Positions 1,547 to 17,874 of a DNA stretch of 50,181 bases are shown here, in pieces. The notes beneath the pieces were generated by a model. The model worked only from the letters and a program-made list of their open reading frames with translations, ran no database searches and was not told where the DNA came from. How positions within the stretch are numbered: the stretch's first letter is position 1; every line of letters begins with the position of its first letter. The translations under genes were made by a program, and so were the position numbers. The stretch comes from Alistipes sp. (GTDB lineage Bacteria > Bacteroidota > Bacteroidia > Bacteroidales > Rikenellaceae), in the NCBI GenBank assembly GCA_017624955.1, contig JAGAMA010000014.1, positions 1 to 50,181 on the forward strand, read 5' to 3'.

Positions 1547-2752
1547 ATGGCGCGCGTAGTAGTTGGACTTTCGGGTGGCGTGGACTCCTCGGTAGCGGCC
1601 TATCTGCTCAAGGCGGAGGGGCACGAGGTGATCGGCCTCTTCATGGTCAATTGGCACGACACGACCGGCACGTTGGAGGGCGACTGCCCCTGGCACGACG
1701 ACCGCGTATTTGCCGAGCTGGTGGCCAAGAAGCTCGATATTGCGCTGCGCGTCGTGGATCTCTCGGAGGAGTATCGTCGGCGCGTGGTCGAGTACATGTT
1801 CGCGGAGTACGAGGCGGGGCGCACCCCCAATCCCGATGTGCTCTGCAACCGCGAAATCAAATTCGACGTCTTCCTAAAAGAGGCGCTCAAGCTCGGTGCC
1901 GACTATGTTGCTACGGGCCACTACTGCCGTAAAACGACCACTACCCTCCCCGACGGCACGGAGCGTTACCACCTCCTCGCCGGCTCGGACCCCAACAAAG
2001 ATCAAAGTTACTTCCTCTGCCAACTCACGCAGGAACAGCTCCGCTATGCCCTCTTCCCGATCGGTCACCTCTTAAAGCCCGAAGTTCGGCGCATCGCCAC
2101 CGAGCAGGGGCTTGCCACGGCCAAGCGCAAAGATTCGCAGGGCATCTGCTTTGTGGGCAAGGTCGATCTGCCTACCTTCCTCCAGCAAAAGCTCGCCAAG
2201 AAGGTGGGTAACGTCCATGAAATCAAGCAGGAGTGGCCGAAGTTCGACCGCCGTCCCCACTATACACCATCCGATGATGAGCCAAGCGATGAACTCCTCG
2301 AAGCACTCGCCGAGGGGTGGCACTACACGGTGCGCGACGGCAAGAAGATCGGCACACACAACGGCGCCCATTTCTACACGATCGGGCAGCGCAAGGGGCT
2401 TGGCATCGGCGGGCGCAAAGAGTCGCTCTTCATCCTCGCCACGGATGTTGCCGAGAATGTGATCTATGTGGGCGAGGGGGATAGCCACCGCGGTCTGTGG
2501 CGACCCACGTTGAAGATTGAGCGTGAGGCGATGCATTGGGTCGATCCCGATCGCGCCATTGCGGAGGGCGAGACGCTCCGCTGCCTGGTGCGCATCCGCT
2601 ATCGCCAGCCGCTGCAAGGGGCTGTGCTCTACCGCCGTGCAGGGGGCTTCTACCTGCTGTTCGACGAACCGCAACGCGGCATCACGGCCGGCCAATTTGC
2701 CGCCCTGTACGACGACGAGGAGCTGATCGCCTCGGGCGTGATTTGCGAATAG
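1547..2752 (+). CDS. mnmA: tRNA-specific 2-thiouridylase MnmA
   Basis: Adds the 2-thio group to U34 of tRNA-Lys, -Glu and -Gln in the cytoplasm, using sulfur passed from a cysteine desulfurase. The PP-loop SGGVDSS is at residues 9-15, and the two catalytic cysteines are C100 (DVLCN) and C201 (GICFVG). The motif GQRKGLGIGG follows. Between GICFVG and that motif there is an insertion of roughly 35 residues compared with the E. coli enzyme (charged, containing PSDDEPSDELLE), which makes the protein 401 aa. It is the second gene of the rimM operon. No hairpin terminator follows directly; the composite palindromic element starts 41 nt downstream. Confidence 0.95.
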   Translation: MARVVVGLSGGVDSSVAAYLLKAEGHEVIGLFMVNWHDTTGTLEGDCPWHDDRVFAELVAKKLDIALRVVDLSEEYRRRVVEYMFAEYEAGRTPNPDVLCNREIKFDVFLKEALKLGADYVATGHYCRKTTTTLPDGTERYHLLAGSDPNKDQSYFLCQLTQEQLRYALFPIGHLLKPEVRRIATEQGLATAKRKDSQGICFVGKVDLPTFLQQKLAKKVGNVHEIKQEWPKFDRRPHYTPSDDEPSDELLEALAEGWHYTVRDGKKIGTHNGAHFYTIGQRKGLGIGGRKESLFILATDVAENVIYVGEGDSHRGLWRPTLKIEREAMHWVDPDRAIAEGETLRCLVRIRYRQPLQGAVLYRRAGGFYLLFDEPQRGITAGQFAALYDDEELIASGVICE

Positions 2753-2793: not shown

Positions 2794-3008
2794 CAGCCTT
2801 TTGGTTGCCAATGGCAACCGATTTGAAAAAGAGAAATCCACCTTCCCAAGCAAGGCTTGGAGGTGGATTTCTCTTTTTCAAAGCCACCTAAAGGCGGCTA
2901 CACAAGGCTGAAAAAAGATTTGACAAAGTCAATCAATATAAAAAAAATATAGACAATCCTCCCAAACCCTCCTTTGATAAGGAGGGCTTAGTCGCTTCGC
3001 TCCTTGGG
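2794..3008 (+). repeat. Composite palindromic element, copy A (cloverleaf plus GGAGGG hairpin)
   Basis: Outer arms CAGCCTTTTG (2794-2803) and CACAAGGCTG (2901-2910) can close a junction that holds three hairpins: 2803-2819 (7 bp, AAT loop), 2822-2882 (22-bp perfect outer stem, then 6 bp around AAG) and 2883-2898. A second part, 2956-3008, has CCCTCC pairing with GGAGGG and then GCTTAGTCGCTTCGCTCC. The same two parts occur at 16544-16759 in reverse orientation at almost equal total length. With its flanks it fills the 390-nt gap after mnmA. The long hairpin may also end mnmA transcripts. Confidence 0.8.
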
Positions 3009-3142: not shown

Positions 3143-3370
3143 ATGATTTCGCCAATCGATCAATACATTATTGATGCTGTCCGCAAGATGCGACGCGAGC
3201 AACATATCTCGCAAGCGATGTTGGGAAGCTGGATTGGTGTATCGCGTGGTTTCATCGGGCAGGTTGAAAGTCCGAAATGCGATGTAAAGTACAGCCCGAC
3301 ACACCTCAACGAAATTGCCAAATATCTTGGTTGCTCGCCCCGCGATTTTCTACCCGAAAAGCCGCTCTAA
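3143..3370 (+). CDS. Small XRE/Cro-type HTH regulator
   Basis: A 75-aa protein that is almost entirely one helix-turn-helix domain of the Cro/C1 type. Residues about 8-62 carry the pattern RREQHISQAMLG, IGVSRGFIGQVE, then LNEIAKYLGCSPRDF. No other domain is present, so it probably binds DNA as a dimer. Its target is unknown. The next gene starts 2 nt after its stop, so the pair is likely co-transcribed. Similar single-domain regulators occur as stand-alone autoregulators or as remnants of toxin-antitoxin or phage modules. No toxin-like partner is seen. Confidence 0.85.
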   Translation: MISPIDQYIIDAVRKMRREQHISQAMLGSWIGVSRGFIGQVESPKCDVKYSPTHLNEIAKYLGCSPRDFLPEKPL

Positions 3371-4302: not shown

Positions 4303-7032
4303 ATGGCAGACGTAAAACGAGTTTATACCTTCGGTAACAAAGAGGCCGAGGGTAATGGTAAGATGCGTGAGCTGCTGGGTGGTAAGGGTGCAAACCTCGC
4401 TGAGATGAACCTCATCGGTATGCCCGTACCTCCGGGTTTCACGATCACGACGGACACCTGCGCCGAGTACTACGCACAGGGTAAGGAGGCAGTCGTAGAG
4501 CTGCTCAAGCCCGAGGTAGAGAAGGCCGTGGCTAACATCGAGAAGCTGACCGGCCGCAAGTTCGGTGACAAGCAGCAGCCCCTGCTGCTGTCGGTACGTT
4601 CGGGTGCTCGCGCTTCGATGCCCGGTATGATGGATACGATCCTCAACCTGGGTATGAACGACGAGGCTGTAGAGGCTATGGCCAAGCTCAGCGGTAATCC
4701 CTGGTTCGCATGGGACTCGTACCGCCGTTTCGTACAGATGTACGGTGACGTAGTACTCGAGATGAAGCCCGCTTCGAAGGAGGATCAGGATCCCTTCGAG
4801 GAGATCATCGAGAAGCAGAAGGAGAAGCGCGGTATCACGAAGGATACCGACCTCACGGTAGAGGATCTGAAGGAGCTGGTAGCTTCGTTCAAGGCCGCCG
4901 TAAAGGCTTCGACCGGCAAGGATTTCCCCGCTTGTCCCTGGGAGCAGCTTTGGGGTGCTATCTGCGCCGTGTTCGGTTCGTGGATGAACGATCGCGCCAT
5001 CCTGTATCGTAAGCTCAACAACATCCCCGCCGAGTGGGGTACGGCCGTATCGGTTATGGCCATGGTATTCGGTAACATGGGTGACAACTCGGCAACGGGT
5101 GTAGCCTTCTCGCGTGACGCCGCAACGGGTGAGGACATCTTCAACGGTGAGTACCTGATCAACGCTCAGGGCGAGGACGTGGTTGCCGGTATCCGCACGC
5201 CGCAGCAGATCACGATCGAGGGTTCGCGTCGTTGGGCCAAGGCTCAGAACATCTCGGAGGAGGAGCGCGTAGCCAAGTATCCTTCGCTCGAGGAGGTAAT
5301 GCCCGAGGTTTACAAGGAGCTGGATGCTATCCAGAACCACCTCGAGGATCACTACCGCGATATGCAGGACATCGAGTTCACGATCCAGGACGGTAAGCTC
5401 TGGATGCTGCAGTGCCGCAACGGTAAGCGTACGGGTGCTGCCATGGTGAAGATCGCCATGGATATGCTCCGCGAGGGTATGATCGACGAGAAGACGGCCG
5501 TACTGCGTTGCGAGCCCGCCAAGCTCGACGAGCTGCTCCACCCCGTATTCGATAAGAAGGCCATCGCTTCGGCCAAGGTGATCACGAAGGGTCTGCCCGC
5601 ATCGCCGGGTGCCGCTACGGGTCCCGTTGTATTCTTCGCCGACGATGCCGCCAAGGTTCTGGCCGAGACGGGTCAGCGCGCTATCCTGGTGCGTATCGAG
5701 ACCTCGCCCGAGGACCTGAAGGGTATGTTGGATGCTGCCGGTATTCTGACCGCTCGCGGTGGTATGACCTCGCACGCAGCCGTAGTTGCCCGTGGTATGG
5801 GTAAGTGCTGCGTATCGGGTGCCGGTGAGCTGGAGATCGACTACAAGGCTCGCACGATCAAGGTTGACGGTGTAACGGTTAAGGAGGGCGATTGGATTTC
5901 GCTCAACGGTTCGACGGGTGAGGTTTACCTCGGTGAGGTAGCTACGCGCGCTGCCGACCTGAGCGGTGACTTCGGTAAGCTGATGGAGCTGGCCGGTAAG
6001 TACTCGGTACTGAAGGTTCGCGCCAACGCCGATACGCCGAAGGATGCAGCCCAGGCATTTGAGTTCGGTGCCGAGGGTATCGGTCTCTGCCGTACGGAGC
6101 ACATGTTCTTCGAGGGCGACCGTATCAAGGCTATCCGCGAGATGATTCTGTCAGACGATGAGGCCGGCCGTCGTGTAGCACTGAACAAGCTGCTGCCGAT
6201 CCAGCGTGGCGACTTCGAAGGTCTGTTCAAGGCCATGAAGGGTCACCCCGTAACGGTTCGTCTCCTGGATCCCCCCTTGCACGAGTTCGTTCCGCATGAC
6301 CTGAAGGGTCAGCAGGAGATGGCCGACGAGATGGGTGTACCCGTTGAGAAGATCATCGCCAAGGTAGAGGCTCTGGCCGAGTTCAACCCGATGCTGGGTC
6401 ACCGTGGTTGCCGTCTGGGTAACACCTATCCGGAGATTACCGAGATGCAGACGCGCGCCATCATCGAGGCTGCCATGAACGTAAAGGCTACGGGTATGGA
6501 TGTACACGTAGAGATCATGGTTCCGCTGGTTGGTAACCACAAGGAGCTCCGCTACCAGAAGAACATCATCGACAAGACCGCCGAGCAGGTATTCTCGGAG
6601 CGCAACGATAAGATCGACTACATGGTAGGTACGATGATCGAGGTTCCCCGTGCAGCCGTTACGGCTAACCAGATCGCCGAGGTTGCCCAGTTCTTCTCGT
6701 TCGGTACGAATGACCTGACGCAGATGACGCTTGGCTTCTCGCGTGACGATATTTCGAAGTTCCTGCCGATCTACCTCGAGAAGGGTATCCTGAAGAACGA
6801 CCCGTTCCAGATCCTGGATCGCAACGGTGTAGGTCAGCTGATCCGTGAGGCCGTATTCAAGGGTCGCGGTACGCGCGATAACCTCAAGTGCGGTATCTGC
6901 GGTGAGCACGGTGGTGAGCCCTCGTCGGTAGAGTTCTGCCACTATGCAGGTCTGAACTATGTAAGCTGCTCGCCCTTCCGCGTGCCCATCGCACGCCTGG
7001 CTGCGGCACATGCTGCCCTGAACCAGAAGTAA
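4303..7032 (+). CDS. ppdK: Pyruvate, phosphate dikinase
   Basis: Interconverts pyruvate, ATP and phosphate with phosphoenolpyruvate, AMP and pyrophosphate; in anaerobic Bacteroidales it links glycolysis and PEP formation. The 909-aa length is typical. The N-terminal ATP-grasp domain covers about 1-340. The swivelling phosphohistidine domain carries GGMTSHAA with catalytic H491. The C-terminal TIM barrel binds pyruvate/PEP, with the acid-base cysteine C866 in GICGEHGG. Codon use is very biased (GGT, GAG, AAG, TCG), which indicates high expression. It is a single-gene unit with its own promoter and a strong terminator at 7053. Confidence 0.98.
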   Translation: MADVKRVYTFGNKEAEGNGKMRELLGGKGANLAEMNLIGMPVPPGFTITTDTCAEYYAQGKEAVVELLKPEVEKAVANIEKLTGRKFGDKQQPLLLSVRSGARASMPGMMDTILNLGMNDEAVEAMAKLSGNPWFAWDSYRRFVQMYGDVVLEMKPASKEDQDPFEEIIEKQKEKRGITKDTDLTVEDLKELVASFKAAVKASTGKDFPACPWEQLWGAICAVFGSWMNDRAILYRKLNNIPAEWGTAVSVMAMVFGNMGDNSATGVAFSRDAATGEDIFNGEYLINAQGEDVVAGIRTPQQITIEGSRRWAKAQNISEEERVAKYPSLEEVMPEVYKELDAIQNHLEDHYRDMQDIEFTIQDGKLWMLQCRNGKRTGAAMVKIAMDMLREGMIDEKTAVLRCEPAKLDELLHPVFDKKAIASAKVITKGLPASPGAATGPVVFFADDAAKVLAETGQRAILVRIETSPEDLKGMLDAAGILTARGGMTSHAAVVARGMGKCCVSGAGELEIDYKARTIKVDGVTVKEGDWISLNGSTGEVYLGEVATRAADLSGDFGKLMELAGKYSVLKVRANADTPKDAAQAFEFGAEGIGLCRTEHMFFEGDRIKAIREMILSDDEAGRRVALNKLLPIQRGDFEGLFKAMKGHPVTVRLLDPPLHEFVPHDLKGQQEMADEMGVPVEKIIAKVEALAEFNPMLGHRGCRLGNTYPEITEMQTRAIIEAAMNVKATGMDVHVEIMVPLVGNHKELRYQKNIIDKTAEQVFSERNDKIDYMVGTMIEVPRAAVTANQIAEVAQFFSFGTNDLTQMTLGFSRDDISKFLPIYLEKGILKNDPFQILDRNGVGQLIREAVFKGRGTRDNLKCGICGEHGGEPSSVEFCHYAGLNYVSCSPFRVPIARLAAAHAALNQK

Positions 7033-16543: not shown

Positions 16544-16759
16544 CCCATGGAGCGAAGCGACTAAGCCCTCCCTTTCTCAAAGGGAGGGTTTGGGAGGGAA
16601 TGTAAGTATCTTTTTATTTAAGTAGGGTTCCTATCTGCTCATCTCTTTCAGCCTTTTGCGACCTCCGAAGGAGGTTATGAAAAGAAAATCCACCACCAAG
16701 ACTTGCTTGGATGGTGGATCTACTTTTCATAAGAATTGCCTTTAGGCAACAAAAGGCTG
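16544..16759 (-). repeat. Composite palindromic element, copy B (inverted relative to copy A)
   Basis: Reading the minus strand from 16759: CAGCCTTTTG pairs perfectly with CAAAAGGCTG (10 bp), enclosing hairpins TTGCC/GGCAA, a long one with ATCCACC and CCAAG paired to CTTGG and GGTGGAT, and ACCTCC/GGAGGT. Then comes the CCCTCCC/GGGAGGG hairpin with GCTTAGTCGCTTCGCTCC. Order, orientation and length (216 versus 215 bp) match 2794-3008, while several stems differ in sequence on both arms. It fills most of the 306-nt gap between the convergent waaA and aroB genes; the remainder shows nothing clear. Confidence 0.8.
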
Positions 16760-16771
16760 CATGACAACCTA

Positions 16772-17797
16772 TCAGTGCGCCATAAACAGCGCAGCCAACT
16801 GCTCCTTCTCAATTTGTCGCACCTCGCATCGTCCGATCGTACGCGGCACCACGAGGTGGATCGTTCCTCCCGAGCTCTTCTTATCCTTGCCCATCTCTTT
16901 GACGAGTTTCTGCATCGCCACGGGCGGTTCGGTCGGAAGTCCCAGGCGCTCAATCACGGCCCGCACACGATCCCGCTCCGAGGCCGAGAACCACCCCTGG
17001 CGCACCGCCACATCGGCTATGGCCACCGTGCCGACAGCCACCGCCTCGCCGTGAATCATCGCCGGACTGCACTTCTCGATGGCGTGTGCCAAGGTGTGGC
17101 CGAGATTCAGCAGACGGCGATCGCCCGCCTCACGCTCATCGCGCTCCACAATCTCGACCTTAACCCGCACGGCCGAGCGCACGGCCGCCGCAAGCAGCTC
17201 GTGATCGCGCCTTAACTCCTCGATCGTAGCCCCCTCCAGACGGCGGAACATCGGCTCGTCGGCAATGATCGTCGCCTTGATGACCTCCGCCATGCCGGCA
17301 CGAAACTCGCGCTCGGGGAGCGTACGCAACATCGCAGGGTCGCAAATCACAAATTCGGGTTGCGTGAAGCACCCCACCATATTTTTATAGCCGTCGAGGT
17401 TCACGCCGTTCTTGCCGCCCACCGAGGCATCGACCTGCCCGAGCAGGGTCGTGGAGATAAAGCCGAAGCGCACGCCACGCATATAGATCGAGGCCACGAA
17501 GCCCGTAATGTCGGAGATTATTCCCCCACCCACGGCCAGCAGGAAGCACTCGCGGTCGGCACCCAGGGCAACCAAGCGACGGATAATCTGCTCGACGGTT
17601 TGGAGTGTCTTGATCGTCTCGCCTCGTCCGATGAGAATCTTCTCATAGGGGGACAACAACTCCTGGTAGAGCCGGTCGATCGTGGCATCGGTAACAACCA
17701 CAACACGCCTACCCTCCACCAAACGAGGCAGTAACTCCATGGCCGAAGCGATGTAAACACGGCTCGCAGCGCGCACCGTAAAATCGGGATTCATCAT
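16772..17797 (-). CDS. aroB: 3-dehydroquinate synthase
   Basis: Second step of the shikimate pathway, turning DAHP into 3-dehydroquinate with NAD and a divalent metal. Seen are AVGGGIISDITGFVAS (nucleotide site), then STTLLGQVDASVGGKNGVNL and the metal-site region with AEVIKA and the His residues in NLGHTLAHAIE and IHGEAVAVG. From the first ATG of a double ATG at 17797 the protein is 341 aa; a longer reading begins 22 codons upstream but would run through the -7 element, so I reject it. It is divergent from typA and convergent with waaA. Confidence 0.95.
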   Translation of the reverse strand: MMNPDFTVRAASRVYIASAMELLPRLVEGRRVVVVTDATIDRLYQELLSPYEKILIGRGETIKTLQTVEQIIRRLVALGADRECFLLAVGGGIISDITGFVASIYMRGVRFGFISTTLLGQVDASVGGKNGVNLDGYKNMVGCFTQPEFVICDPAMLRTLPEREFRAGMAEVIKATIIADEPMFRRLEGATIEELRRDHELLAAAVRSAVRVKVEIVERDEREAGDRRLLNLGHTLAHAIEKCSPAMIHGEAVAVGTVAIADVAVRQGWFSASERDRVRAVIERLGLPTEPPVAMQKLVKEMGKDKKSSGGTIHLVVPRTIGRCEVRQIEKEQLAALFMAH

Positions 17798-17817
17798 TCG
17801 TTGTGTTTTTACGCCCT

Positions 17818-17825
17818 CAAATTTA
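17818..17825 (-). promoter_or_regulatory. -7 element of aroB
   Basis: Minus-strand TAAATTTG, 20 nt before the aroB start. It faces the typA -7 element across 22 nt. Confidence 0.45.
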
Positions 17826-17847
17826 GTATATTTTCGAAGAAAATAGC

Positions 17848-17855
17848 TACATTTG
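17848..17855 (+). promoter_or_regulatory. -7 element of typA
   Basis: TACATTTG fits TAnnTTTG, 19 nt before the typA ATG. A TTTA at 17822-17825 lies near the -33 position. Confidence 0.5.
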
Positions 17856-17874
17856 TGCGTCAAAAAATTTCTCT

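Follow-up and report, generated by a model that had tools for sequence, protein, structure and literature searches.

The 50,181-nucleotide stretch of Alistipes sp. DNA analysed here (the window, contig C3 of a 2.1 Mb genome) carries two copies of a composite palindromic element that we consider probably to be a non-autonomous, mosaic, MITE/BIME-like mobile DNA element of about 300–370 bp, with a core in which an intrastrand triplex motif comes after a cloverleaf palindrome. The element is dispersed and inserts, some of its insertions duplicate 10–80 bp of their target, and its copies, one subfamily excepted, mostly follow a stop codon closely and in one orientation. Its stems flip, and blocks are exchanged between copies. 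The element has so far been found only in Rikenellaceae, no title in a search of openly licensed literature names it, and the family looks unrecorded among mobile elements.

Architecture and distribution of the element

Copy A occupies positions 2794–3008 on the forward strand and copy B positions 16759–16544 on the reverse strand, as given in the preliminary description of this DNA, which also correctly placed both copies 3′ of genes: copy A lies behind mnmA (1547–2752, forward strand; NCBIfam NF001138, 416 bits, over cut-off), which ends 41 nt ahead of it, and copy B behind aroB (16772–17863, reverse strand; NCBIfam TIGR01357, 338.6 bits, over cut-off), which ends 12 nt ahead of it. Copy A begins with the cloverleaf palindrome (2794–2910; covariance-model score 119.2 bits), in which the outer stem CAGCCTTTTG/CACAAGGCTG encloses three hairpins, the second of which (hairpin 2, 2823–2881) folds into a long stem with the apex CCAAGCAAGGCTTGG. 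The calculated folding energy of this cloverleaf is −69.4 kcal/mol compared to a shuffle mean of −29.9 kcal/mol (z −11.0), and that of the copy B cloverleaf (16649–16759, reverse strand; 95.5 bits) is −54.5 kcal/mol compared to a shuffle mean of −24.9 kcal/mol (z −9.7), with no shuffle equalling the native value in either case. The cloverleaf of copy A is followed by an A/T-rich spacer (2911–2957), to which by eye the spacer of locus L076 is similar, by the triplex motif CCTCCC-AAA-CCCTCC-loop-GGAGGG (2958–2986), and by a conserved tail, CTTAGTCGCTTCGCTCC plus the first bases of TTGGGTAATACTA (2987–3008). The corresponding reverse-strand parts of copy B are the motif CCCTCCC-AAA-CCCTCCC-loop-GGGAGGG (16566–16598) and the tail CTTAGTCGCTTCGCTCC plus the first bases of ATGGGTGGTGCTAA (16544–16565). 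The window contains exactly two occurrences of the tail sequence GGCTTAGTCGCTTCGCTCC, where 0.02 would be expected. The extent of 215 and 216 bp assigned earlier to the two copies is accurate as a pair of coordinates, but not as a mobile unit ending at 3008: insertions bounded by repeats are longer, and sequence homologous to the right end of copy A runs on in other copies. We note that a small helix-turn-helix gene (3143–3370) behind copy A weakly resembles the Y4mF family of antitoxins, at a score below the curated cut-off.

A covariance-model search of the kind proposed in the preliminary description yielded many further copies, both in the same genome, with 23 cloverleaf places at E values up to 1.1e-4, and in related genomes. 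Within the genus Alistipes, 24 of 180 genomes carry matches at E values up to 0.01, eight of these carriers having a single match, which in five of the eight lies at E 4e-5 to 0.0033. Across the family, 24 of 268 genomes match at E values up to 0.001, 20 of them belonging to the genus and the remaining four to three further genera, where the matches are weaker than those within the genus. A degenerate 24-base pattern combining tail and triplex motif retrieved 15 stretches from a one-genome-per-species collection, all titled Alistipes or Rikenellaceae. The 84 cloverleaf places used below (81 unique sequences) were obtained from 157 matches in 82 loci by keeping the better strand, with L082 and L093 counted once, and the 60 sampled from relatives are a subset of those matched in the genus search. 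Two near relatives of carriers, G091 and G097, are among the closest genomes for each of the two flanks tested and show no cloverleaf match, in contrast to G000, G035 and G051, and thereby offer a good contrast for finding a mobilising gene.

Subfamilies can be wholly unlike in their outer stem (CAGCCTTTTG, TAGCCTTTCG, CGGATTTAGG, CAACTTTCA and others) and nevertheless keep the branched plan, with the hairpin-2 apex CAAGC..GCTTG being, by eye, the sequence most widely shared across them. The compensatory stem changes reported earlier are real: in an alignment of 21 copies, both sides have changed in 15 of 33 consensus pairs, and the covariation score of 0.213 exceeds that of all 500 shuffles and of six slid versions. 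The expectation that additional copies would preserve both pairing and boundaries is borne out for the pairing, whereas the outer boundaries vary.

The triplex motif and the pairing of the stems

The second hairpin, noted previously as a CCCTCC/GGAGGG stem, is present in both copies but is not unusually stable by itself (z −1.7 in copy A and −1.1 in copy B). Its remarkable feature is instead a mirror-image third block, which had been missed: on the purine strand, TTT separates the stem block from its mirror image, which comes after it, as in GGAGGG-TTT-GGGAGG, GGGAGG-TTT-GGAGGG, GGGGGA-TTT-AGGGGG and GGGGAGA-TTT-AGAGGGG. Among 60 instances (with orthologues counted separately), 52 are informative because their block differs from its own mirror; in these, the third block is the exact mirror in 44 and a direct copy in none, while 1000 shuffled pairings gave 12.8 mirrors of 52 on average and at most 21. 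As the mirror-image block is kept through changes, the hairpin can be classified, by sequence, as a predicted intrastrand triplex motif of the type presented in PMC4666352.

The loop of the triplex hairpin contains, at L006, L012, L017, L024, L043, L050, L090, L094, L108, L113 and L144, a structured insert of about 70–95 bp with the composition GCCGAG.GCAGAG-hairpin-CTATGCCGAGGCGCG, and an insert of the same type is found in another hairpin at L060. This insert, which has no match in Rfam, looks like a second, nested element. Genome G035 additionally carries a second class of triplex motif, comprising free-standing mirror repeats (AAGTCCCCCTCACAGGAGGGGGATTTAGGGGGTGGG and similar) with a different flank, near positions 5418, 5589 and 179732 of contig C8, 1799 of C6 and 45066 of C15. 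At L040, on a contig of 3796 bp, half a triplex motif with its second arm missing adjoins a LysR-type gene with upstream tandem repeats.

Covariation of this kind had been read as favouring selection on structure, either as RNA or as a palindromic DNA substrate, and the RNA reading is not supported by our data. Folding the 81 unique copies without G-U pairs leaves 82 isolated mismatches beside 3677 Watson–Crick pairs; on the sense strand, 16 of these mismatches are G-U and 26 are A-C, such that there is no excess of G-U. When G-U pairs are allowed, they account for 73 of 3741 pairs (2.0%) on the sense strand and 137 of 3775 (3.6%) on the other strand, compared to 52 of 372 (14.0%) in a control set of 15 tRNAs of relatives and 20 of 334 (6.0%) when the same tRNAs are read on the wrong strand. 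This rarity suggests that the pairing is not kept by RNA rules, although an antisense RNA is conceivable, given the slightly higher share on the antisense strand. No match at gathering level was found in Rfam for either the window or 20 loci, and we therefore rejected an RNA gene or riboswitch; the sub-threshold hits (E values up to 10) are mixed and include many microRNA hairpins.

The stems also flip in place. Hairpin 2 of L091 is reverse-complementary to that of L092 at 62 of 63 bases, an arm comparison shows hairpin 2 of copy A to match that of its G035 orthologue (L098) better when flipped, and the whole cloverleaf is, by eye, reversed relative to the triplex motif in L089, L092, L113, L114 and L124, which form part of the TAGCC subfamily. 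Such flips suggest that the two arms are rewritten from each other and, in combination with almost purely Watson–Crick pairing, point to a DNA process. Thus, the compensatory changes are genuine, but selection on structure need not follow from them. In line with exchange of blocks between copies, the cloverleaves of L116 and L117 are 100% identical at different loci with the left flank at background, and of 29 within-genome pairs with at least 90% cloverleaf identity, 27 have members that resemble each other more in the cloverleaf than in either flank, a likeness that could also reflect selection.

Insertion behind genes and its possible routes

Comparison between strains, likewise suggested in the preliminary description, revealed both empty sites and, for some copies, target duplications. 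Copy A is present in G035 and absent in G051, while copy B is absent in G035, G097 and G091; more broadly, 12 of the 23 copies in the own genome can be compared with G035, where eight are absent and four present. G035 itself contains a 304-bp insertion between a gene end and the next gene, probably pgk, with a perfect 25-bp direct repeat (CTGGAAGTGGATGCGGTACAATTAA) on each side; at the empty sites in G000 and G051 CTGGAAGTGGATGCGGTACAATTAA occurs once and the insertion is missing. Similarly, 368 bp lie between two copies of GCAAGAAAAG, a 10-bp duplication, at L088 in G000, where G035 has one copy of GCAAGAAAAG and no insertion. L078 is flanked by a 20-bp repeat with one mismatch, with no orthologous site within the stretches compared. 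The orthologous insertions L097 and L106 are bounded by imperfect repeats of about 79 and 60 bp at a gene end that stands element-free in G097, G143 and G091; in G000 the third orthologue, L080, breaks off within the triplex motif and has no right repeat. Three insertions bounded by direct repeats measure 304, 354 and 368 bp, and the duplication lengths (10, 20, 25 and about 60–80 bp) vary, with no fixed length. These observations show that the element inserts, and the many copies, the empty sites and the target duplications of some copies bear out the earlier suggestion of a non-autonomous MITE- or REP-like palindromic DNA element.

Several observations count against this explanation. For most copies, including A and B, the repeat test gave no direct repeat scoring above background (most control scores were 9–16, and three, of 58, 34 and 22, are taken as related or orthologous loci); the empty/filled pairs L046, L077 and L079 show no clear duplication; L080 is cut; and the outer ends are not constant between copies. 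The left end GTGCTGATGC recurs while right ends are variable, no shared terminal inverted repeats were found, with a possible 14-base one in L076 only, and the cloverleaf outer stem is itself an inverted repeat, yet the insertions reach beyond it. A direct repeat in the TAGCC subfamily, AAAGATAGTG, is found again at unrelated loci; it probably belongs to the element and was therefore not taken for a target duplication, and a 37-bp repeat at L154 was not counted since this locus is a tandem duplication.

Copies outside the TAGCC subfamily show a marked bias in their position relative to genes. In 54 of 63 assigned cases (7 of the 70 copies have no assigned left gene, and gene calls are open-reading-frame heuristics), the gene next to the cloverleaf end is oriented towards the element; the median distance from stop codon to cloverleaf is 35.5 nt, and co-directional contexts number 22 versus 5. 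No such bias is seen for the 13 TAGCC-type copies, of which 4 follow this orientation, 4 oppose it and 5 are unassigned. This position behind genes may reflect an insertion preference, selection against other positions, or function, and its strict orientation, which random insertion does not explain, counts against a mobile element. The outer end of TAGCC-type copies at L089, L091, L092, L108, L109 and L124, TTTTTTTGGCAGTGCGCTCGGCTTTCACTATCTTTG, resembles a Bacteroidetes promoter (TTTG, about 20 bases, TAnnTTTG), and some TAGCC copies stand ahead of gene starts, where, judging from this resemblance, they may deliver a promoter.

Taken with the short distance from the stop codon, this orientation could instead indicate a cis-acting 3′-UTR RNA element (a terminator, insulator or stabiliser) that is co-transcribed with the gene preceding it, retained because of its RNA fold, and spread by occasional duplication. 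In its favour, relatives without copy B have, by eye, hairpins and then T runs between aroB and the next gene, and at one convergent gene pair the first gene is followed by a CGGATTTAGG copy in G052 and G169, and in G066 the other gene is followed by a CAACTTTCA copy, from a different subfamily and in opposite orientation. We consider this explanation unlikely in light of the scarcity of G-U pairs, the stem flips, the absence of an Rfam family, the empty sites in close relatives, and the missing orientation of the TAGCC subfamily. Retroposition as in a SINE, with an RNA copy reverse transcribed at a nicked target, would explain the long, variable duplications and the shortened right ends opposite a recurring left end; it is, however, improbable, as no poly-A-like tail was seen, both pairing and flips are DNA-like, and RVT_1, present in 61 of 180 genus genomes, occurs in 7 of the 24 carriers and is absent from the other 17 (incomplete) assemblies, that of the own genome included.

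Movement in trans by the DDE transposase of a resident IS, as for a classical MITE, accounts for the size, dispersion and empty sites of the element and possibly for the terminal repeat of L076, but the variable duplication length and the lack of a shared terminal inverted repeat speak against it, and we consider it improbable. The palindromic, dispersed, mosaic and intergenic character of the copies also recalls REP/BIME sequences, which a Y1 (RAYT-type) transposase would move, or repeats associated with DUF559 nucleases. We regard this as very improbable, and as already contradicted unless both genes were missed by the assembly of every carrier, through a gap or by lying outside it: Y1_Tnp is found in 2 and DUF559 in 10 of the 180 genus genomes, neither in any of the 24 carriers, and a mirror scan of the ten DUF559 loci found no such triplex motif. 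None of Y1_Tnp, DUF559 and RVT_1 fits as a general mobiliser, and no partner enzyme emerged among them. An origin from phages or plasmids was rejected, as copy B has no blastn match in phage or plasmid collections, and two exact element patterns gave no match in viral contigs; integron attC sites were set aside on the basis of their core-site consensus.

Returning to a mobile DNA element, the most economical mechanism would comprise three steps, of which we infer the first two: a single strand folds, template switching rewrites its arms, and the element inserts behind genes. The region would become single-stranded during replication or repair, allowing the strand to fold, and the arms would be copied from each other by template switching, which would yield near-perfect pairing without wobble, in-place flips, and cloverleaves that are alike at different loci. 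New copies would then enter staggered breaks behind genes, either via an enzyme recognising the fold, whose most widely shared sequence is the hairpin-2 apex, or via replication template switching itself. A host function is not needed for this explanation, although a mild role at gene 3′ ends is possible. A bolder proposal, which we put forward tentatively and with clearly less confidence, is that the family constitutes a new class of bacterial mobile DNA whose mobile unit is the folded single strand itself, with its cloverleaf and triplex, entering widely staggered breaks behind genes with duplications of 10–80 bp, its stems rewritten by template switching such that structure outlives sequence, and its enzyme neither a Y1 transposase nor an RVT_1 reverse transcriptase.

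Relationship to known systems

Intrastrand triplex motifs (TM, PIT) occur in many bacterial genomes according to PMC4666352, which reports triplex formation in vitro but not stably in vivo and links the E. coli motifs to variable loci; neither Alistipes nor any term in Bacteroid- occurs in its main text. The motif described here, predicted from sequence whereas triplex formation was demonstrated in vitro for TM/PIT, shares with them three blocks of which the third mirrors the second, a G/C-rich composition, intergenic placement and many copies, and TM/PIT are linked to unstable loci. In E. coli, however, no mobile elements were reported close to the motifs and no orientation bias was seen, whereas here the motif is one module of a cloverleaf element with insertion evidence and keeps a fixed side towards genes. 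Triplex motifs being abundant in bacteria, their presence in an inserting unit, a mobile context not reported in the passages of PMC4666352 considered here, provides a testable route for their spread. The family also documents, in natural sequences, how palindromes flip their stems and exchange blocks, and it cautions that compensatory stem changes alone are no proof of a selected RNA structure.

As in REP/BIME systems with RAYTs (PMC2817692, PMC3733652 and PMC3116915), the element is an intergenic mosaic of palindromic modules. It differs in size, at 215–370 bp compared to REP units of 20–40 bp (abstract of PMC3733652), in its target duplications, and in the lack of a Y1 transposase in the 24 carriers. 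Prokaryotic MITEs (PMC10969869, PMC4596501 and PMC9769881, among others) are likewise short, non-coding and dispersed, with empty sites and some target duplications, and the multiple dispersed non-coding copies found here (23 places, with 8 of 12 absent in G035) agree with this. The long and variable duplications, together with the position behind genes, call for an enzyme or repair pathway yet to be named. The element falls short of a MITE proper because it has neither shared terminal inverted repeats nor a fixed duplication length, and it has no partner transposase among the families searched (Y1_Tnp); in its workings, it resembles a hybrid of MITE and BIME.
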